From the NCBI RefSeq assembly GCF_001625445.1, contig NZ_LWHG01000011.1, positions 806,001-870,000 of the forward strand: 64,000 nt of DNA. The letters are read 5' to 3'. The DNA is from Haladaptatus sp. R4 (GTDB taxonomy: Archaea; Halobacteriota; Halobacteria; Halobacteriales; Haladaptataceae). The position numbers and the translations under genes are program-made. Of this stretch, positions 44,314 through 63,432 are shown piece after piece. Each line of letters begins with the position of its first letter. Positions within the stretch are counted from its first letter, which is position 1. The notes beneath the pieces were generated by a model, which saw only the letters and a program-made list of their open reading frames with translations, ran no database searches and was not told the origin of the DNA.

Positions 44314-44511
44314 GGTCGAACGTTCGTCTCCCGCGGTCTTGTACGCCGGTCGTAGTTCCCGTCGCTTGAGAACAGATCGTTCGACGGAAACGCTCTTTTC
44401 CCCGGTGTCCCTATCGGCGGATGGCCGATGACGAGAACGGCGTTCCGAACCGGCGTGGCGGCCGGTGATGACGAACCCTATGAGTGCCGAGGCCGAACGA
44501 GTATCGACCGT

Positions 44512-50679: not shown

Positions 50680-53600
50680 ATGTCACGAAATCACGGCCGT
50701 ATCCGTGCGGCCCTTCTGGTAGTAATCGCGCTGATGGTCGTCGTCGGAATCACGCCACCATCGGTGAGCGGTGCAAACAATATCGGCATCGGCATCAATG
50801 GGGAGGACGAGACGATTGCGCCGGGGGATTCGTTCGGCTATTACACATACGGTTTCTCCGGTGACCACTACGTCTACGTCGTTCTTGACAAGAACGGAGA
50901 CGGTTTCTACAACGCGTCCGACGGGTACATGAACGTCTCCGTTTCCACCAGCGATAGCAACTTCAACGACTACTTCCCCGCCACGAAGACCACCGGCTTG
51001 GACGGGACGTACGACGTGTATGCTGTCGACGATAAATCCCTCGACGACGGACTACTCGATACCGGTGACAGTCTGACGAACGGTTCCTCGACACAGATTC
51101 ACATCGACGGGAGTCCACCGTGGGTTTCGGACGTGAATTTCACGAACCCGACCAACCAAACGCTCGATTTTTCCTTCACCACGAACGAGCAGGTGAACAC
51201 ATCGACTATCAGCATCTCCGGACCCGAGTCGAGAATCCTCGACGGCAGTAACTTCACCGAGACCAACGACAACGGGACCTACACGTACAACACCTCCGTC
51301 GCAGTCACCCACGACGGTGACTACACGGCGGAAATCACCACGGCGAAAGACGACATCGGAAACGACGCCGCGAACAACCAATCGACATCGGAACTGTCCG
51401 ACAACGTTACCGTCGATACCGTTCCGCCGGGACTGCAACACGTCGAGGCGGAAGTCGGCGACGACACTGCCACCGTCACGTTCAACGAGAGTGTCGTGGA
51501 CGGCGACGGAAATGCACTCAGCGCCGACGATTTCGTGTTCACCAACGCCGACGGAGGCGGCGCGACGAATATTGGCTCCGTGAGCCACACGACGGGCACG
51601 GACACGGCGACGGTGACCTTCGACGCCTCCGTCTCGGCGGGTGACCTCGAAAACGACACCATCGCGGCGAAATCGGGGCACGTCTACGACCGGTACGGGA
51701 ACGCCGCGGACACGACGGCTAAATCGCTGGAAGATACGGTGCAACCGGGGGCACCGACGGGAATCTCCGCACCGGACATCAACGCGAGCAATCGAGGGTC
51801 GTACGACGTTTCGGTCACCCTGCCCGACGACCACGAAGCCGGAACTGTACAGCTATCGCTAGCCGGTAATGTGACCAGAAGCACCACGGTCACGGCCGAG
51901 TCGGATGGCGACTCGACCGGTGAAACGGTCACGTTCACCGGTATCGATACCTCCGGTATCGCCGACGGATCGGTGTCCATCGACGCGACGATGACCGACT
52001 ACGGCGGGAATTCGAACAGCGCGTCAGGAGTCGAGGTGACGAAGGATACGAGTCTCCCAGGCGTCACCGATGCGAGCATCTCGAACGCACCCATCGGTAC
52101 CTACGACGCCGGGACCCAACAGACGGTGACCGTCGAGTTCAACGAGAGCATCGATACGAGCGCAAGCCCGACGGTTCGGGTCGTGAATCTGAATCGGACG
52201 TACGCCGTCAACGGGAGTTTCGACGACGATACGACGTGGACCGGGACCGTCACCATCGCGGACGACAACGAGCAGGCGACCGGAGCCATCGACATCTCCG
52301 GTGCGACCGACGGCGTGGGGAACGTGATGGCCGCCGACAGTTCGAACACGTTTCAGGTCGATACGACGGGACCGGCCAAACCCGATTCCACCGACGCGGC
52401 GAACATCACGCGAAAGAATCAGGATGACTACGACGTCACCGTGAACCTCGTCTCCGACTCGGAAGCCGATACGGTGAGCGTGAAGGTTTCGGACGGGACG
52501 AACTCGGTCGTCGAGAATCGGAGCGTCACGAACGGTACGGATTCGGTTACCGTCCCCGGTATCGACGTTTCGACGCTGGACGATACGGGAACCATCACCG
52601 TCACCGCGCTCGCGTTGGATGGCGGCTATCCGAACAGCGAGGGGTACACGGCGGGGACGACGGTGACGAAGGACACGACGCGGCCGACAGCGACGAACGT
52701 CGAAATCGGCGACGGCGAAATCAACGACACCGATGCCGGGACGTCACGGACGGTGACCGTCACGTTCGACGAGTCGATGAATCGGAGCGTCGACCCGTCC
52801 GTTCGGGTGGCGGGTCTGAACCGGACGTACGTCGTCGTCGGGAGTTACGATAGCGACACGATATGGACGGGGACCGTCACCATCGCGGACGACAACGAGA
52901 CGACGACCGGGAACGTCACGGTCGAGAACGCGACCGACGCCGTCGGAAACGAACTGGCGGCGACGAAACACGCGTTTTCGGTCGATACGGTGTCTCCCTC
53001 CATCACCGGATTCGACGTGCGACGTACCGGCGGCGGAACGGTCGAGCTATCGTTCAACGGCAGCGAACGACTCGACGCCGCTTCCGTCACCCTTTCGACC
53101 CCGAGCGGAACGACGACGCTCACCTCGTTTACCGAGTCGGGGAGCGGGCCGTACGAGTACACGACGACGTACGCGGGCGGTGACGGCACCTACACCGCGA
53201 CGTTGACCGAGGCCCGCGACGATGCGGGCAACGACGGCGCAAGCGGGCAATCCGACGCGGTGACGGTGGACACGACGCCGCCGACGTTCAGCGATCCCGT
53301 TCCCAGCGACACGACGGTCACCGACAACGAATCCACGGTGCGTATCGACGTCGCGGATGCGACCGGGAGCGTGAACGGGAGTTCGATTCGCGTCACGGTC
53401 ACTGATTCGTCCGGAACCGAACTGAACGCGGTCGGAACGGCCCACAGCGGGGTTTCGTTCGACGGGAGCACGCTCACCGTCGACCCTTCGGCGGCGGGAA
53501 TCACGCTGGCCGACGGCGACGTGAACGTCACCGTCGCGGCGAACGATACGGACGACAACCGGAACACGACCGAGTTCTCGTTCGGCGTCGATACGACGAC

Positions 53601-56600
53601 CCCCGGCGTTCAGCAACCCCGCGCCGACCGGGACGTGACGGACGATTCGACGACGATTCGCGTCGATATCGACGACGCGACGACCGGCGTTGACGGGTCG
53701 AGCCTCCAAGTCACGCTCGACAACACGAGCGGCCAGTTCTTCAGCGGCGGAACCGGCACCGACGGCGTCTCGTTCGATGGCGACACGCTCACCGTCGACC
53801 CGACGAAGTCGGGCGTCCCGACCCTTCCGAACGGTACGGTCACCGTTACCGTCACCGCGGACGATGCGGTCGGAAACGAACGCTCGAACGGGTTCGAGTT
53901 CGACGTCGACGTCCCGCCGTCGGTCAGCGGTTTCACGGCGACGAACACCGACGGGATGAACGTGACCGCGTCGTTCGATTCGACCGACGAACTCGATACC
54001 GTGGCGGTCGGCATCAGCGGTGCGGAAAGTTCGACGTTGACCACGGCCGATTTCTCCGCGACGCCTGACGGCGACGGCGGGTACAACTACACGGCGACGT
54101 ACACCGGGGGTACTGACGGAAACTACACGTTCCGGTTGAACACGGCCGACGACGGACGGAGCGACGGTGCGACCGGGGAAACGGAGACGGTACTCGTCGA
54201 CGACACGCCGCCGTCGGTAACCGTTTCGACGCCCGACGGTGGGGAACAGTTCCACGACGGCGAGACGGCGACTGTCGAGTGGACCGCGACGGACTCCGTG
54301 AGCGTGGACACCGTTTCGATCGACTACTCCGCGGACGGCGGTGCGAGTTGGGCGACCATCACGGCGGCGACGAACGACGGAACCTACGACTGGACGGTTC
54401 CCGTCATCGACTCCGAGTCCGTCCTCGTTCGCGTCAACGGGACCGATACCAGCGGGAACGTCGGCACCGACACGAGCGCCGGGACGTTCACCATCGACTC
54501 GACGGCACCGACGGTCGAAAACTACAGCGTGAGTAATCCAACCGGGCAAGACGTCGTCGTCTCGTTCGATACCGACGAACGACTTGGGGCGATTACCGCG
54601 GAGGTCTCCGGTACCGAGTCGGGAACGCTCACGATGAGCGATTTCACCGAGACGGACAACGGCGACGGAACGTACACCTACGCGACCACGTACGCCGGGA
54701 GTTCCGACGGCAACTACACGGCGACCCTGACCGAGGCGACCGACGCCGTGGACAACGACGGCGCGAGCGGCCAGTCGGAAAGCGTCGAGGTCGATACGAC
54801 TGACCCGTCGATCTCGAACTTCACGGTGACGAACCCGTCGGGGCGGAACGTGACGGTCGAACTCGATAGCGACGAATCGCTTTCGGACATCGATGTCACG
54901 CTCTCGGGTGCCGAGAACGCGACGCTGACCCGAACCGATTTCACCGTGAGTGGAACGACCTACACGGCGACCTACGACGGAAGCGTGGACGGTACGTACA
55001 CCGCGACGCTCGACTCCGCGGCCGACGACGCGGGCAACGACGGCGCATCCGGGGAGACGGACGCGGTCAGCATCGACACGACGCCGCCGACCATCTCGAA
55101 CGTCACCGTCTCGAATCCGACCCAGCAGGAGGTGCAACTGCGCTTCGACAGTTCAGAACCGCTCGCCGCCGTCGGTATCGCCATCTCCGGCGCCGAAACC
55201 GCGACGTTACGTCGAACCGGTCCGTCGAACGCGAGCGGATCCTACGTCGTCACGTACACCGGGAGCGTCGATGGTACGTACACCGCGACGTTGACCGAGG
55301 CGACGGACGATGCGGGTAACGATGGCGCGAACGGCCAATCGGGTAGCGTGACCGTGGACGCCCTGTCGCCGACCATCTCGAACCTCACTGCCTCGAACCC
55401 GACCGGTGACGAGATACGGGTCCGAGTCGTGAGTTCGGAACCGCTCTCCGCGCTCGAAACGGACCTCTCCGGGCCGGAGAACGCGACGCTCACCTTCGAC
55501 GACTTCGTTCGAAACGGGACGACGTACACCGCGACGTACCCGGACGCCCCGAACGGCGAGTACGACGTGACTGTGGTCGGGTTCGCCGACACCGCGAACA
55601 ACACGGGGTCATCGGGTCGGACGGACAACGTGACGCTACAGACCAGCGCGCCGACCGCCTCGAACTTCGTCGCCACCAATCCGACCGGAAGACGTGTCGT
55701 CATCAGCTTCGACGGATCGGAACCGCTTTCGGCGATCGACGTCTCGCTCTCCGGCGCGGCGAACGCGACGTTGACGCGGGCGAACTTCACCGAAAACGGA
55801 ACGACCTACACGGCGACCTACAACGGGAGCGTCGATGGCACCTACACCGCGACGCTGGATGGGATAACGGATGGAACGGGTATCCACACCGTCCCGGGTA
55901 AAACGGCCAGCGTCACCGTCGATACGTCACAATCCGGTGGTGGAACCGGCGGCGGAAACACCGGTGGGAGCGGGACCGGCGGTGGGAGCAGTGGCGGAGA
56001 TACCGGAGACGGAACCGGTGGAAACGGGACGGTCGGTGATGAGGGCACTGGCGGGTCGAACGATGACACGGCCGACGACACGCACGACGACCCGCTCTCG
56101 GTCACGGTCACACCGGGTAACGGGGAGACCACGAACGTCTCCGTCGAAAACGCCGACGCGTATCGGAACGTCGGCGTGACGTTCGAAAACGAGACCGGTA
56201 CGGGTGGACTCAACGTCAGCCAGTTGAACCTCACCGTCGAGCGGCGGGCGAATTACGACTTGCGCGTGAACACCTCGGAGAACCTGTCCACCGAATCACC
56301 CGATTTCAACGGACGTACCGTTGGACTCGCTCGAATCGATCACTCGATCCCCGATTCGGAGATCGATGGCGTCCAGTTCACGTTCCGGGCCGATGCACGC
56401 CGCTTCGAATCGACCGCCATCGACCCCGACGAAGCGGTAGTCTACCGCTACCACGACGGACGGTGGAACGCCCTCGAAACGAGCGTGGTTCGACGGGACG
56501 GGGATTCGTACGTCCTGCGTGCCGACTCTCCGGGCCTGTCCACGTACGCCGTCGGTCTTCGAAACGAGGACCTCCTCTCCGTCTCGGGTGCGAGTCTGTC

Positions 56601-57057
56601 GGGTCCGTCCGGAACCGTCGGGGATTCCGTCACGGTCTCCGCAACCGTCACGAACCGCGGTAACTGGATGGCGGACGAGACTGTCTCGGTGACGGCCAAC
56701 GGGACGAACGTCGCCACTCGAACGATCACCGTCCCCGTCGGGGAAACGAAGGCGATATCGTTCGATATCACGCTCGATCAGCCCGGGACCTACGCCCTCG
56801 CGGTCGATGGAACGTCGGCCGGAACCCTCGTCCTCTCGGGCGTTTCCGAAACGACGGAAACGAGCGGGGACGTCGCCACGACCGAGTCATCGACCGCTTC
56901 GACTTCGTCACGGACGACGGGGATGGTCGGGACGACCCACACGACGGCGCTCGGCGACTCGTCGAAAACGAACCGGGACCGTCGTCCCAAAAGCTGGTCG
57001 CTCCTCGCGGTTGGTGCTCTCGTCCTCGCCGCGCTCCTCGTGATTCGCCGACGGTGA
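50680..57057 (+). CDS. Giant surface protein with about 16 Ig-like repeats and PGF-pre-PGF domain
   Basis: 2125 residues. A signal peptide (ALLVVIALMVVVGIT) precedes a long array of about 16 Ig-like domains of roughly 95-105 residues each, marked by VDTTPPT-type junctions. Domains 12-16 (from residue about 1279) are near-tandem, with the last units exactly 94 residues long (54811, 55093, 55375, 55657). A Gly-rich linker (about 1752-1800) leads to a PGF-pre-PGF domain (DLRVNTSENLSTESPDF, VQFTFRADARRFES, YRYHDGRWNALE), a CARDB-like domain and a Ser/Thr stalk. The C-terminal helix SWSLLAVGALVLAALLVIRRR lacks the PGF motif. Strong N-glycosylation potential. Likely an adhesin or S-layer-associated fibre. 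An AT-rich promoter lies at about 50535-50580. Confidence 0.85.
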   Translation: MSRNHGRIRAALLVVIALMVVVGITPPSVSGANNIGIGINGEDETIAPGDSFGYYTYGFSGDHYVYVVLDKNGDGFYNASDGYMNVSVSTSDSNFNDYFPATKTTGLDGTYDVYAVDDKSLDDGLLDTGDSLTNGSSTQIHIDGSPPWVSDVNFTNPTNQTLDFSFTTNEQVNTSTISISGPESRILDGSNFTETNDNGTYTYNTSVAVTHDGDYTAEITTAKDDIGNDAANNQSTSELSDNVTVDTVPPGLQHVEAEVGDDTATVTFNESVVDGDGNALSADDFVFTNADGGGATNIGSVSHTTGTDTATVTFDASVSAGDLENDTIAAKSGHVYDRYGNAADTTAKSLEDTVQPGAPTGISAPDINASNRGSYDVSVTLPDDHEAGTVQLSLAGNVTRSTTVTAESDGDSTGETVTFTGIDTSGIADGSVSIDATMTDYGGNSNSASGVEVTKDTSLPGVTDASISNAPIGTYDAGTQQTVTVEFNESIDTSASPTVRVVNLNRTYAVNGSFDDDTTWTGTVTIADDNEQATGAIDISGATDGVGNVMAADSSNTFQVDTTGPAKPDSTDAANITRKNQDDYDVTVNLVSDSEADTVSVKVSDGTNSVVENRSVTNGTDSVTVPGIDVSTLDDTGTITVTALALDGGYPNSEGYTAGTTVTKDTTRPTATNVEIGDGEINDTDAGTSRTVTVTFDESMNRSVDPSVRVAGLNRTYVVVGSYDSDTIWTGTVTIADDNETTTGNVTVENATDAVGNELAATKHAFSVDTVSPSITGFDVRRTGGGTVELSFNGSERLDAASVTLSTPSGTTTLTSFTESGSGPYEYTTTYAGGDGTYTATLTEARDDAGNDGASGQSDAVTVDTTPPTFSDPVPSDTTVTDNESTVRIDVADATGSVNGSSIRVTVTDSSGTELNAVGTAHSGVSFDGSTLTVDPSAAGITLADGDVNVTVAANDTDDNRNTTEFSFGVDTTTPGVQQPRADRDVTDDSTTIRVDIDDATTGVDGSSLQVTLDNTSGQFFSGGTGTDGVSFDGDTLTVDPTKSGVPTLPNGTVTVTVTADDAVGNERSNGFEFDVDVPPSVSGFTATNTDGMNVTASFDSTDELDTVAVGISGAESSTLTTADFSATPDGDGGYNYTATYTGGTDGNYTFRLNTADDGRSDGATGETETVLVDDTPPSVTVSTPDGGEQFHDGETATVEWTATDSVSVDTVSIDYSADGGASWATITAATNDGTYDWTVPVIDSESVLVRVNGTDTSGNVGTDTSAGTFTIDSTAPTVENYSVSNPTGQDVVVSFDTDERLGAITAEVSGTESGTLTMSDFTETDNGDGTYTYATTYAGSSDGNYTATLTEATDAVDNDGASGQSESVEVDTTDPSISNFTVTNPSGRNVTVELDSDESLSDIDVTLSGAENATLTRTDFTVSGTTYTATYDGSVDGTYTATLDSAADDAGNDGASGETDAVSIDTTPPTISNVTVSNPTQQEVQLRFDSSEPLAAVGIAISGAETATLRRTGPSNASGSYVVTYTGSVDGTYTATLTEATDDAGNDGANGQSGSVTVDALSPTISNLTASNPTGDEIRVRVVSSEPLSALETDLSGPENATLTFDDFVRNGTTYTATYPDAPNGEYDVTVVGFADTANNTGSSGRTDNVTLQTSAPTASNFVATNPTGRRVVISFDGSEPLSAIDVSLSGAANATLTRANFTENGTTYTATYNGSVDGTYTATLDGITDGTGIHTVPGKTASVTVDTSQSGGGTGGGNTGGSGTGGGSSGGDTGDGTGGNGTVGDEGTGGSNDDTADDTHDDPLSVTVTPGNGETTNVSVENADAYRNVGVTFENETGTGGLNVSQLNLTVERRANYDLRVNTSENLSTESPDFNGRTVGLARIDHSIPDSEIDGVQFTFRADARRFESTAIDPDEAVVYRYHDGRWNALETSVVRRDGDSYVLRADSPGLSTYAVGLRNEDLLSVSGASLSGPSGTVGDSVTVSATVTNRGNWMADETVSVTANGTNVATRTITVPVGETKAISFDITLDQPGTYALAVDGTSAGTLVLSGVSETTETSGDVATTESSTASTSSRTTGMVGTTHTTALGDSSKTNRDRRPKSWSLLAVGALVLAALLVIRRR
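54514..55932 (+). repeat. Tandem 282-bp (94-residue) Ig-like units in the giant surface gene
   Basis: Units start at 54514 (297 bp), 54811, 55093, 55375 and 55657. The last intervals are each exactly 282 bp. Each unit has the pattern (I/A)SN-xTxxNPT, SxEPLxAI, GTYTATL and DAGNDGA. Equal lengths point to duplication by recombination. Assembly collapse or expansion is possible here. Confidence 0.75.
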
Positions 57058-58388: not shown

Positions 58389-58604
58389 AGGTGGAATAAG
58401 TAGCGGACACGGTTAAGTGGTAGGTGTCTTTCGATACCGTTTGACATGCAAACTGGATACTGGATCGGGGTGACCCCCCACCGAAACGAGGAGTATTTAC
58501 TCGCATCTGAAAACACAATTCCGCCGAAATCGGCGTTATGAGGGCACTAAGACGGCCGTACACCATACATAATTATACGTTCGTAGGTGGGTCGTACAAC
58601 CACG

Positions 58605-60113
58605 ATGTCAGACACTGGGCAGTCAGTCCAATCCCTGAAGTCGAAACTCCCGAATCCAATAACGGCGGACAACGTTCGCTACAACCCGTCGTTTTCGGAA
58701 CTTCGTGAGTTTTCGCGGGAGTTGGAGACGACGGCCGAATTCGGTTCCGCGTCGTACGTCAGCCGCGAACGGTCGCGCAACTCGGACAAGACGAGAAATG
58801 CCGTCGACGAAGGATTCGACGCGGACGACTACGCACACATCGAGGACGCGGTCGAGTTCGCCCGAGAACACGAGATGCTCTGCGTGGACCGCCTGATGGG
58901 CCGCCACACCGACCACTCCTACCGGTGCAGACTCTACGTTCCGAAGAAGTACGGCCGTATCGCCCTCGCGTGGGCGAACCTCTTCGAACCGGTCGAGGAG
59001 GAGGGTGAACCGGATTTCGTCACGATACAGGTTCCCGACTGGGACGAAATCGCCGTTCGAGTCCTTCCCGAGGAGGGCGTGACCGTCGCTCTCGGAAGCG
59101 ACTACACCGGCGAGGCGAAGAAGTCCTTCCTCAGGTTGTTCATGTTCCACGCAAAACGGAAGGGCGGCCTCGGACTGCACGCCGGAAGCAAGCGAGTGAC
59201 GCTTCGGGACGAAACCGGCGACCTGCGCGATGTGGGGCAGGTTTTCCTCGGTCTCTCCGCGACCGGCAAGTCCACGCTGACCGCCCACGGTCTCTGGCTC
59301 GACGACCCCGAATCGGCGACGATGCTCCAGGACGACGTCTGTGCCCTGCTCCCCGACGGAAGCGTCGCGGGCAGCGAAGGTAACGGGTTGTACGTCAAGA
59401 CCATCGGCTTGGACGCCGACGAACAGCCCGCGATGTACGACGCCGTCACGCACGAATCCGCGGTCCTCGAAAACGTGGACGTGGACGACGACGGTACCGT
59501 CGATTTCGACAGCGACCTCCACACGTCGAACGGCCGGGCCATCATCCGCCGCGACCAACTCTCGTCGTCGAGCGAGGACATCGACCTGGAGCGGGTCGAC
59601 CAACTGTTCTTCATCACCCGCAACCCGACGATGCCGCCGGTGGCGAAACTGTCGCCGGAGGAGGCGGCGGTGGCGTTCATGCTCGGCGAGTCCATCGAGA
59701 CCAGCGCGGGCGACCCGTCGAAAGCCGGTGAGTCCATCCGCGTCGTGGGCACCAACCCGTTCATCATCGGATCGAGGGGCGAGGAGGGCAACCGGTTCCG
59801 CTCGCTCATCGACGACCTCGGCGTCGAAACCTACATCCTCAACACCGGCCACCTCGGCGGCAAGGACATCGGCGTCACGGAGTCGGTGACGTTGCTCCGG
59901 GAGATCGCGCGCGGGACGGTCGAGTGGACGGACGACGACGCGAGCGGACTCACCGTTCCGAGTTCGGTCCCCGGTATCGACATCGGCGAGTTTTCGGTCG
60001 CGGACAACGTCGACGACCACGATTCGGAGTTGTCACGACTCCGTACCGAGCGACGGGTCCACCTCGACACGTTCGAGGATCTGGACGAGGACATCCGGGA
60101 CGCGGTTTACTGA
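58605..60113 (+). CDS. pckA: Phosphoenolpyruvate carboxykinase (ATP)
   Basis: About 502 residues from the ATG at 58605 (MSDTGQSVQSLKSKL). It converts oxaloacetate and ATP to PEP, CO2 and ADP in gluconeogenesis. Motifs: P-loop GLSATGKSTLTAHG (from residue about 216), metal-binding LQDDVCALLPDG, NGLYVKTIGLD, and GRAIIRRDQLSSS with the catalytic Arg/Lys region. Haloarchaea usually carry PpsA and PckA. The length and motifs indicate the ATP-type enzyme rather than the GTP-type. Confidence 0.93.
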   Translation: MSDTGQSVQSLKSKLPNPITADNVRYNPSFSELREFSRELETTAEFGSASYVSRERSRNSDKTRNAVDEGFDADDYAHIEDAVEFAREHEMLCVDRLMGRHTDHSYRCRLYVPKKYGRIALAWANLFEPVEEEGEPDFVTIQVPDWDEIAVRVLPEEGVTVALGSDYTGEAKKSFLRLFMFHAKRKGGLGLHAGSKRVTLRDETGDLRDVGQVFLGLSATGKSTLTAHGLWLDDPESATMLQDDVCALLPDGSVAGSEGNGLYVKTIGLDADEQPAMYDAVTHESAVLENVDVDDDGTVDFDSDLHTSNGRAIIRRDQLSSSSEDIDLERVDQLFFITRNPTMPPVAKLSPEEAAVAFMLGESIETSAGDPSKAGESIRVVGTNPFIIGSRGEEGNRFRSLIDDLGVETYILNTGHLGGKDIGVTESVTLLREIARGTVEWTDDDASGLTVPSSVPGIDIGEFSVADNVDDHDSELSRLRTERRVHLDTFEDLDEDIRDAVY

Positions 60114-60438: not shown

Positions 60439-60630
60439 GGAACGCACCCGATGCGTACTCGCCCGCCTCTCTCGAAAACAGAAGGAAAGAATGGCTTCGA
60501 ATCGACCGTCGCCATCGTTCACAGCGTCGATTACGCGCTGCTGTTCGGTTTGCCGTCGTCCGGAGTGCCGCCCAGAACCACGTCCTGCTCGGCGAGCGTC
60601 GGGAACGCACCCGATTCGTACTCGTCCGCC
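60439..60630. repeat. 29-bp direct repeat flanking the 3' end of the TasA-like gene
   Basis: The 29-mers at 60439-60467 and 60602-60630 (beginning GGAACGCACCCGAT) differ at two positions. The right copy lies in the coding end of the TasA-like gene (peptide EYESGAF). The left copy, 163 bp away, lies after the stop and would encode EYASGAF in the same orientation. It looks like a remnant of a duplicated C-terminal segment. Confidence 0.6.
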
Positions 60631-61478
60631 CACGGGTTCTCCGGATACTTGTCGGCGGGAGTGTCGTTGGGGTCGCGGAAGCGTTCTTCGGGGTTGTGCC
60701 GGGACTGTTCGGCGTAGAAATCGAAGTTGACCCGGATGCTGTCGCCCTGTACCTCGTTGCCGACGTCCTCGGGGAGTTCCCACCGAACCGTGATGTACTG
60801 GCACGTGCCGTTCTGGAACGGATCGATCGGTTCGCCGTCGGGATACGCACCGCCGACCACGTCGGGGGAGTCGCCGTCACGGACCCCGTCGAGCAGCACG
60901 GGGACGGACCCGTACTGCGGCGTCGTCGTTTGCGTCCCCTTGAGGTCGAGTGGCTTCTGGATATATCGGTCGTTCCAGAGGTTGCCCGACTCCGGACCGT
61001 CGCCCACCGTCGCGTTCTTGTTCTGGTCGTAGAACGTACGGAACTCCAGGTTCTCGTCCATTTCGCCGTAGCCGTTGGTATCCGTCCCTTCGGCTTCTTT
61101 TTCGGGGTCGTTCTGTCCGTTTTCTTGGGAGTGGCTGAGCCGACCGCGGAACCACACCCACGCCGGGTTGTCCACGTTCTCGATCGTGAACCGAATCCAT
61201 CCCTGGTCGCCGGGCTTGATGTCCTTGAACTCGATGCCGAGCTCCGTGTTGTCGGTATCCTGTGCCGGAACGACTTTGGGATCGACGTCGTTCCCGTAGT
61301 GATCGACTTCCCAACCGATCTTCAAGTCGAGGTCGCCAGCAGTGAACGTCGCGTTGGTTCCTTCCTTGTCGTTCAGGAACGCCATCGTGCCCGCGCCGCC
61401 GAGCGCTGCCGCGACACCCATGCCGCCGATACCGAGAAGTACGTTGCGCCGATTGAGAGTGAGTTTTTTATCTGACAT
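60531..61478 (-). CDS. TasA/CalY-like protein with SipW-dependent-type signal peptide
   Basis: About 315 residues. The N-terminus LNRRNVLLGIGGMGVAAALG is followed at the cleavage region by GTMAFLNDKEGTNATFTAG and DLDLKIGWE, the pattern of SipW-dependent substrates such as TasA and CalY. The mature part is beta-rich (WIRFTIENVDNPAWVWFRG, YITVRWELPEDVGNEVQGD). Known relatives form biofilm fibres in Bacillus and donor-strand pili in Crenarchaeota. It is divergent from a regulator and signal peptidase locus at 61905-63082, which would process it. There is one Arg-Arg in the signal, so Tat use is also possible. Confidence 0.8.
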   Translation of the reverse strand: MSDKKLTLNRRNVLLGIGGMGVAAALGGAGTMAFLNDKEGTNATFTAGDLDLKIGWEVDHYGNDVDPKVVPAQDTDNTELGIEFKDIKPGDQGWIRFTIENVDNPAWVWFRGRLSHSQENGQNDPEKEAEGTDTNGYGEMDENLEFRTFYDQNKNATVGDGPESGNLWNDRYIQKPLDLKGTQTTTPQYGSVPVLLDGVRDGDSPDVVGGAYPDGEPIDPFQNGTCQYITVRWELPEDVGNEVQGDSIRVNFDFYAEQSRHNPEERFRDPNDTPADKYPENPWADEYESGAFPTLAEQDVVLGGTPDDGKPNSSA

Positions 61479-61904
61479 TAGTTGTCTCCGTTCTTCGACA
61501 CCCATCGTCGGTAGCTTCCGACGGTTCCGAGTCGAAGACGCAACCGACCCGATGACCTATCACCGTGTATATATATACTCGATAGTGGTTTCATAGAGAT
61601 CGTATATCCATCCCATAAACGGTCTCTAGCGGGTTTACAAGCGATTCGAGGGGGTTCAGGCGCGACCCATAGAGACCGTATAGTGGGTCACAAGCGGCAG
61701 TTGACGCTCATATTCGTTCGCGGTAACGTCGGGAGACAGCGTCTCGGAGCCATTGGTCCTGACAAATATATAACTAATGAATTATGGAAATGCATCTATC
61801 AGGTTCATAAATATAATACTACAGTTCCAGCTATCTACCCGGGCAAAACGATGATAACGACGAGCCGGGGGGGCAGTGATGAAAGATAACGGCAGGGTCG
61901 ACGT
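61479..61904. other. Divergent promoter region of the TasA-like and regulator genes
   Basis: 426 nt, AT-rich in places, with TATA-like runs TATATATATACT (about 61568) and AAATATATAACT (about 61764). It carries the repeated sites at 61592-61682 and no convincing reading frame. Confidence 0.5.
61592..61682. promoter_or_regulatory. Three copies of TAGAGAYCGT, candidate operators
   Basis: CATAGAGATCGTAT 61592-61605 and CATAGAGACCGTAT 61669-61682 are direct copies. AAACGGTCTCTA 61617-61628 is the same site inverted. A second shared word (GGGTTTACAAGCG at 61631, GGGTCACAAGCG at 61685) follows two of them. Position between divergent genes of one system fits a shared operator, perhaps for the DUF7344 protein. 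Confidence 0.5.
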
Positions 61905-62495
61905 ATGAGCACGACGACCCCCGTCCCGACTCAACCCGAACAGACAACACAACAAAATCGAGAACCCAAGACACTCACACAGGAGACGGCGTTCAACATT
62001 CTCAGCTGTCAGCGGCGGCGGAACGTGGTCCACTATCTCCTCCAGCAGGGCGAATCCGTCTCGCTCCACGAACTCTCGAAGCAGCTCGCGGCGTGGGAGA
62101 ACGAGATAGTGCCCGAGGAGGTCACGTACGAACAGCGAATGCGCGTCTACACGGCGCTTCGACAGGCACATCTGCCGAAGATGGACGACGCCGACGTCGT
62201 CCACTTCGACGCGAACGGAGGGACGATACGGCTCACCGACGCTGCGACGAAGTTGGAGGTCTATTTGGACATCGTCCCCCACGACGGAATCCCGTGGAGC
62301 GGTTACTATCTCGGACTCGGCGGCGTCTCGGTAGGGCTGATCGCGCTCGCGTGGATCGGTCTCTTCCCGTTCGACCGACTACCGGGCCTCGCGTGGGGAT
62401 TCGTGATTTCGCTACTGTTCCTCGCATCCGCCGTGGCACACAAGCGACACGACGAACGGCACCGCCTCGGCAAGGAGGGCCGCCCGCCGCTATGA
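61905..62495 (+). CDS. Membrane-anchored DUF7344 regulator of the TasA-like locus
   Basis: A 196-residue protein: a winged helix (TAFNILSCQRRRNVVHYLL, VSLHELSKQLAAWENEIV, ALRQAHLPKMDDADVVHFD) followed by two TM segments (about 135-180, LGLGGVSVGLIALAWIGLF and LPGLAWGFVISLLFLASAVA). This is a variant of the DUF7344 family with a membrane anchor. It is translationally coupled to signal peptidase (ATGA at 62492-62495), so it probably senses or controls export of the TasA-like proteins. Confidence 0.8.
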   Translation: MSTTTPVPTQPEQTTQQNREPKTLTQETAFNILSCQRRRNVVHYLLQQGESVSLHELSKQLAAWENEIVPEEVTYEQRMRVYTALRQAHLPKMDDADVVHFDANGGTIRLTDAATKLEVYLDIVPHDGIPWSGYYLGLGGVSVGLIALAWIGLFPFDRLPGLAWGFVISLLFLASAVAHKRHDERHRLGKEGRPPL

Positions 62496-63082
62496 TGGCC
62501 GTCGCCGCCGCCCGAAAGCCACGGCGAATCGCACGCCTCGGCGGGATGGTGCTCCTCGTCGCTGGCATCCTTCTGCTGGCGGTCGTCGTGTTTCCGCAAC
62601 TCGTCGGCGCGAGCGGGAGCTACGTCGTGCTCTCGGGGAGCATGCATCCGACGATACACGCCGGGGACGTCGTCGTCTCGAAGCACGTCGAACCGAGCGC
62701 AATCGAGGAAGGCGACATCCTCGTCTTCCATCGCGAATCGGCTTCGAATTCCGACCGCACGACACACCGCGTCGTCGACGTCGTCCACCGCGACGACGGA
62801 CTGTACTTTAGAACGAAGGGAGACGCGAACGAGAATCCGGACGTCGGACTCGTCTCGGCCGACGACGTGATCGGCCGCGTTTGGTTCCACGTCCCGTACA
62901 TCGGGCATCTCCTGCTGTTCGCACGGACGCGCGCAGGGTTGCTCTCGTTGGTCGTCCTCCCCTGTCTGCTGATCGTGATCTCGGAAGCGTACTCGCTCGT
63001 CGGTGCGACGCGGGCCAAAAGCGAAGACGAGGACGAAACGGGCGGTGACAAGGACGAAACGGATGGTAAAGATACGAGATGA
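62492..63082 (+). CDS. Archaeal type I signal peptidase (SipW-like)
   Basis: About 196 residues with two or three TMs. The Ser-His-Asp type is shown by the catalytic Ser in VLSGSMHPTIHAGDVV, the His in RTTHRVVDVVHRDDG, and GDANENPDVGLVSADDV with the Asp. This is the ER/SipW-like class (no catalytic Lys). The C-terminal tail is acidic and hydrophilic. It is coupled at both ends (ATGA overlaps with the upstream regulator and the downstream small protein), so a dedicated peptidase for the TasA-like proteins is likely. Confidence 0.88.
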   Translation: MMAVAAARKPRRIARLGGMVLLVAGILLLAVVVFPQLVGASGSYVVLSGSMHPTIHAGDVVVSKHVEPSAIEEGDILVFHRESASNSDRTTHRVVDVVHRDDGLYFRTKGDANENPDVGLVSADDVIGRVWFHVPYIGHLLLFARTRAGLLSLVVLPCLLIVISEAYSLVGATRAKSEDEDETGGDKDETDGKDTR

Positions 63083-63432
63083 TACACGGACCCAATCCCA
63101 AAGCGACCGTGCTCGTAGTCGCGGCGCTCTGCCTGCTAAGCACGATCAACACCCCGGTCACACACAGCCTGTATGCGGATTCCGAGGTGATGAGTTCGAA
63201 CTTCGTCGGCGGAAACGTCACGACTACCGCCGTCGAGAACGCAACGAATCACACCACGACGAACGTGAACGAAACGTCCGTCGAACCGACGACCGTCTCC
63301 CCCACGACCAGCGGAACGACGCCACCACCGAACACCACGACGTCCTCCTCGCTGGTAGGGACGACGACGAACGAAACGACGGATACCGACCCGGTCACGA
63401 CACGAAAAACGGTGACCGAAAACAGTGGCTAA
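63079..63432 (+). CDS. Small Thr-rich secreted protein with SipW-dependent-type N-terminus
   Basis: 117 residues. A signal peptide (KATVLVVAALCLLSTINTPV) is followed by THSLYADSEVMSSNFVGGN, matching the pattern of SipW-dependent substrates. The rest is Thr/Asn/Ser/Pro-rich with many N-x-T sequons, a likely glycosylated stalk or a minor component (TapA-like in role). Its start overlaps the stop of the signal peptidase gene, making a three-gene coupled operon. Confidence 0.75.
   Translation: MIHGPNPKATVLVVAALCLLSTINTPVTHSLYADSEVMSSNFVGGNVTTTAVENATNHTTTNVNETSVEPTTVSPTTSGTTPPPNTTTSSSLVGTTTNETTDTDPVTTRKTVTENSG

Follow-up and report, generated by a model that had tools for sequence, protein, structure and literature searches.

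A haloarchaeal operon of DUF7344 regulator, SipW-type signal peptidase and small secreted-protein genes beside a TasA-like gene

Organization of the locus

The locus comprises four genes within the window, the whole 64,000-nt stretch of Haladaptatus DNA that was analyzed. A TasA/camelysin-like secreted protein is encoded on the minus strand (60531–61478); its N-terminus carries a twin-arginine motif (NRRNVL) and a signal of the SipW-dependent type. Divergent from it, a three-gene operon on the plus strand (61905–63432) encodes a DUF7344 winged-helix regulator with two predicted C-terminal transmembrane (TM) helices (61905–62495), a SipW-type signal peptidase I of the Ser-His-Asp class (62492–63082), and a small secreted protein with a non-RR signal, an LYADSE motif, and a Thr-rich tail (63079–63432). 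Both joints of the operon, as read from the sequence, are 4-bp ATGA overlaps, located at 62492–62495 between the regulator and peptidase genes and at 63079–63082 between the peptidase and small genes. The nearest relative lacks the ATG that lies upstream in the TasA-like frame at 61505, which makes 61478 the likely start. The four genes with these coordinates and domains, the ATGA joints, and the divergent TasA-like gene had all been proposed in the original prediction and held. Its "regulator-peptidase fusion" failed as a fused protein, and we reject that literal reading because the two are separate proteins; operon coupling of separate genes holds.

The neighborhood contains other features. 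A frame at 58587–60113, directly adjoining the locus, matches ATP-type PEP carboxykinase (PF01293, E = 6e-57). About 3.5 kb from the locus, 50680–57057 encodes a 2125-residue, repeat-rich secreted protein with a C-terminal hydrophobic segment, a possible surface adhesin. An sR-tMet C/D box RNA (Rfam RF02163, 71 bits) lies at 44423–44494.

Properties of the encoded proteins

The peptidase scores 107 bits against TIGR02228 (cut-off 51.85), and an alignment pairs its Ser (LSGSM), His (THRVV), and Asp (TKGD) with the corresponding motifs of SEC11C, which upholds the proposed assignment to the Ser-His-Asp type I signal peptidases. The cut-off of the Bacillus SipW equivalog NF046067 is not reached (107 of 190 bits); the enzyme is thus SipW-type and not SipW itself. 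Three peptidases in the whole genome pass the TIGR02228 cut-off, and each adjoins one of the genome's three TIGR04088 proteins. Because of this pairing the peptidase looks dedicated to its linked substrates, as inferred from gene position alone. Two further weak TIGR02228 matches in the genome are longer frames, which we take to be general Sec11-type enzymes. Among 178 haloarchaeal TasA-like signals, 160 carry a small-bulky-bulky-S/N/T/A/G-D motif, with mostly Y, L, or F at the second place.

The TasA-like protein meets the cut-offs of the SipW-dependent signal model TIGR04088 (29.7 bits, cut-off 19) and of Pfam camelysin PF12389 (36.4 bits, cut-off 22.5); that of the Bacillus TasA equivalog NF046066 is not reached (24 of 450 bits). 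In a PDB search with a profile of 32 relatives the two best sequences were TasA (E = 6e-4 and 7e-4), and the match includes an N-x-Q-G-x-S strand common to both proteins. Only this 32-row profile found TasA; single-sequence searches with the protein or its N-terminus did not. The AlphaFold model has a mean pLDDT of 61, with core blocks at 70–88. Foldseek alone returned nothing for this model at E <= 0.001, and TasA was absent from its top 50 hits; TasA ranked first by structure only after re-alignment, in which the first three rows were TasA entries (Z = 7.3, 7.2, and 6.7, ~20% identity). All these scores lie below 8 and would be unconvincing by themselves. Since they are joined by the profile match and the signal, we accept homology to TasA as likely, on the basis of a predicted model and a modest fold match. 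Structure prediction, suggested earlier as a check of the TasA fold, therefore speaks in its favor with that reservation: the nearest solved structures are TasA.

Many relatives of the TasA-like protein are long and contain additional domains, such as von Willebrand A, which is present in 8/32 sampled TasA-like proteins, as it might be in a tip adhesin.

The small protein has 117 residues, in which a hydrophobic N-terminus is followed by LYADSE and a low-complexity, Thr-rich tail. It matches nothing in the family-model libraries searched and has no detectable globular domain. The same hydrophobic N-terminus and LYADSE-type pattern occur in 16 proteins at the equivalent place in related loci. 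The SipW-type signal originally ascribed to it is thus only partly upheld; it rests on these relatives and not on a family model.

The regulator matches DUF7344 (PF24035) with 94.9 bits (cut-off 27.8, E = 4e-27). Its AlphaFold model shows a winged helix and two long helices, and hydropathy places hydrophobic segments at residues 136–154 and 159–177; the proposed combination of a DUF7344 winged helix with two TM helices held. The best structural match of the winged helix is RosR (Z = 10.7, rmsd 2.4, 87 residues), and a PDB profile search with the regulator alignment gave no match. Model and hydropathy predict a membrane-anchored winged-helix protein; DNA binding and promoter control are inferred. 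The C-terminal tail has basic residues, from which we tentatively infer that both ends lie inside the cell.

DUF7344 is a strongly expanded family in this 4.9-Mb genome, with 57 matches ranging from ~120-residue proteins to ~200-residue proteins with TM helices. Judged by eye, some of the long paralogs neighbor frames resembling sugar or surface genes; a wider role of the family at cell-surface genes is therefore possible.

The region between the divergent genes

The stretch that separates the TasA-like gene from the operon contains a near-palindrome, CATAGANNNCGTATA, three times, a number of matches that was reached in no shuffle. Repeat 1 (CATAGAGATCGTATA, 61592–61606, plus strand) fits the pattern exactly and is conserved in two related loci, L123 and L124. 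Repeat 2 (61616–61629, minus strand) is an inverted copy with two mismatches, and repeat 3 (CATAGAGACCGTATA, 61668–61682, plus strand) lies 76 bp from repeat 1. The exact pattern occurs twice in the whole genome, both times between these genes; a reversed control pattern is as frequent genome-wide as the one-mismatch background. L123 (Haladaptatus DYF46) shows the same 76-bp spacing between its sites, of which one, CATATACGGCGTATATG, is a palindrome except at its center, and L124 (G002) has one exact site. Repeat 1 is positioned upstream of an inferred TATA-like box of the TasA-like gene (GTATATATATAC, 61564–61580, minus strand), and the box is conserved in L123, L124, and L125, with the distance between the two fixed.

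This arrangement is suggestive of operator sites for the regulator and no more than that, as there are no binding data. The repeats occupy the position, upstream of the TATA box, at which activators in archaea usually bind; activation of the TasA-like gene is hence a possible, inferred mode of action, and no more than a guess. We sought the repeat pattern in all fetched loci and found it absent outside the Haladaptatus clade, including the operon-type loci of other families; the idea that it is a general site of the DUF7344 family is rejected on this ground.

A different element, CATAACTA, is common to operon-type loci of other families (L146, L149, L150, L168, L175, and L180), where it lies upstream of the regulator gene. 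It could be either a promoter element or a binding site.

Conservation across haloarchaea

Of 194 genomes searched within the order, 72 hold a related peptidase, and 60 loci were analyzed. A full-length DUF7344-TM gene lies within ~9 kb in 44/60 SipW loci vs 0/17 control windows of the same genomes (Fisher 2.4e-8). Shared ancestry among the SipW loci makes the p-value indicative only. Nine other genomes carry 3–11 full-length DUF7344-TM genes each, which would put the rate expected by chance at a few percent. The remaining 16/60 loci have no such gene nearby; the regulator is therefore not obligatory.

Two arrangements recur: the regulator gene is either head to head with TasA-like genes or directly before the peptidase gene, as in the window. 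Thirteen regulators directly before a peptidase form one clade (UFB 100, aLRT 96) that spans four labeled families and Halorarius. In all 14 regulator-before-peptidase loci examined (this clade and L144), a third gene follows the peptidase gene, mostly with a 4-bp overlap, and the N-terminus of its product is hydrophobic, in most cases accompanied by an L/F-S/A-D-like motif. Because the third gene follows in every one of these loci, over several families, the three-gene operon is conserved well beyond the genus; the locus is thus a conserved regulator–SipW-type peptidase–small secreted protein operon beside a TasA-like gene. Other families with the operon-type arrangement often have their TasA-like gene downstream or convergent, not divergent. 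The synteny search proposed with the original prediction, for DUF7344-TM plus SipW in other haloarchaea, is hence positive: the pairing is widespread and the operon-type regulators are one clade. The genome's other two SipW loci also have short DUF7344 genes, at a distance of ~3.5–6 kb; for these genes, chance neighborhood is not excluded.

Other loci in the sample show further variety. Large haloarchaeal TasA-SipW clusters (L073–L084, L088, L102) contain four to six TasA-like genes. L133 (G023) and L134 (G011) have a DUF7344-TM regulator divergent from other, weakly TasA-like proteins (GAFTSVSA motif) and also hold a long, divergent SipW-like peptidase, a second flavor of the same pairing. 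L125 (G009) has a peptidase gene on either side of its TasA-like gene: the first belongs to the regulator operon, and the second, behind the TasA-like gene, is overlapped by a 56-residue SipW-signal frame.

Signals for two possible export routes

A twin-arginine motif is present in 175/178 strong haloarchaeal TasA-like signals vs 2/37 in bacterial loci. The profile behind this count was seeded with an RR sequence, which biases it toward such signals. The TasA-like protein of the window stays below the cut-off of the Pfam Tat model (15.2 of 22.7), and few of its relatives match Tat models. A SipW-signal-like frame occurs at the 3' end of 43/73 peptidase genes, and the RR motif is missing in 35 of these 43. 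With RR in TasA-like signals and mostly none in the small partner, two export routes, Tat for the TasA-like protein and Sec for the small one, may meet at SipW, a possibility inferred from sequence. If it is true, TasA-like subunits would exit folded, the cut would free the donor strand outside, and the small protein would arrive via Sec. It also raises the question of how a donor-strand fiber is built from subunits seemingly exported by Tat.

A model for the locus

With moderate confidence (probability ~0.55), we favor a model in which the four genes form a haloarchaeal TasA/SipW-type surface-fiber locus under the control of a membrane-anchored one-component regulator that it encodes itself. 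Tethered to the membrane through the TM hairpin, the DUF7344 winged helix would bind the repeats upstream of the TasA-like promoter and switch the gene; it may be tuned by the membrane or by the peptidase made with it. Tat would export the TasA-like subunit, and SipW would cut it at the conserved A-bulky-bulky-S/N-D motif, freeing an N-terminal donor strand by which subunits are joined. Sec would export the small protein, in which a similar N-terminal motif is kept without a detectable globular domain; this protein may start, cap, or anchor the fiber in a role resembling that of TapA in Bacillus. DNA binding, activation, cleavage of both secreted proteins, fiber assembly, and the TapA-like role are all inferred, with no expression, binding, cleavage, or imaging data; the fiber function, already marked as inference in the original prediction, is still inference.

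A bolder reading, which we consider unlikely, is a two-route assembly line: folded, Tat-exported TasA-like subunits and a Sec-exported, tethered donor-strand peptide would both be freed by one dedicated SipW, and the regulator, translated together with SipW, would read the state of the peptidase and set expression of the fiber gene. If true, a family of membrane-bound one-component regulators for surface structures in haloarchaea would thereby have its first worked example.

Alternative explanations

The regulator could act locally, as an autoregulator or repressor of the operon that encodes it and of nothing else, with another factor controlling the TasA-like gene and owning the repeats. This remains possible: the repeats are confined to the Haladaptatus clade, and the operon occurs in several families where the TasA-like gene is often downstream or convergent. 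However, in the other branch of the regulator family the regulator is commonly head to head with TasA-like genes, and the repeats sit between the regulator and the TasA-like gene.

The secreted proteins may likewise be non-polymerizing surface or adhesion proteins of an ordinary, SipW-processed kind, whose resemblance to TasA reflects only a shared beta-sandwich and signal. The Z scores below 8, the moderate model confidence, and the many long relatives with von Willebrand A or other domains fit this view. Against it, TasA is the best PDB match by both sequence profile and structure, and the N-x-Q-G-x-S strand is held in common.

Regulated proteolysis, in which the peptidase cuts the regulator to release a soluble factor, could be imagined since both are membrane proteins with overlapping genes and a shared history. 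We regard it as very improbable: after cleavage in the short loop outside, the winged helix would still be attached to the first TM helix, that loop shows no SipW-type motif, and in the head-to-head branch the regulator is away from the peptidase gene.

Chance neighborhood, which the 57 DUF7344 matches in 4.9 Mb might favor, is all but ruled out by the 44/60 vs 0/17 control windows and the 13-member operon clade across families, a rejection that applies to the full-length TM type only.

The SipW/TasA linkage gives a concrete, testable function to part of the abundant DUF7344 family, control of surface fibers from the membrane, and it also bears on the making of the archaeal biofilm matrix and on the reason for having a separate SipW.

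Comparison with known systems

Archaeal TasA homologs are already known (PMC10151520, PMC9674648). We found no paper on DUF7344 or haloarchaeal SipW, and no description of the regulator–SipW–small gene arrangement, in the literature searched, whose coverage was partial and lacked the key bundling-pili paper (PMC9245690); the earlier claim that the arrangement seems undescribed holds within these limits. The archaeal bundling pili of Pyrobaculum (7ueg) are an archaeal TasA relative, and their similarity to the model of the window's TasA-like protein is weak (Z = 5.3), tied with unrelated sandwiches.

The closest parallel is the tapA-sipW-tasA operon of B. subtilis, which likewise combines a dedicated SipW-type peptidase, a TasA-like protein, and a small secreted accessory protein whose gene overlaps that of the peptidase; tapA and sipW overlap in Bacillus (PMC10151520). 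Unlike that operon, the haloarchaeal locus has a DUF7344-TM regulator in the operon, a divergent TasA-like gene, a twin-arginine motif in the TasA-like signal, and a small protein without a detectable folded domain. Bacillus uses SinR/SlrR for control (PMC13082335). TapA has a folded Ig-like domain behind its donating N-terminus, whereas the haloarchaeal small protein has no family match and a low-complexity, Thr-rich tail. TapA that secretes only residues 44–57 still supports biofilm (PMC10151520). By analogy, the small protein may work like the N-terminus of TapA, a tentative parallel, and we do not class it as TapA.

The N-terminal domain of the regulator shares its winged-helix fold with RosR of Halobacterium salinarum, but the RosR chains compared have 110–116 residues, leaving no room for the C-terminal TM pair. 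B. subtilis SipW is bifunctional and is reported to influence matrix gene expression (PMC13082335). The haloarchaeal locus would resemble it in tying the peptidase to control of matrix genes, with that control placed in a separate membrane protein encoded by the adjoining gene.
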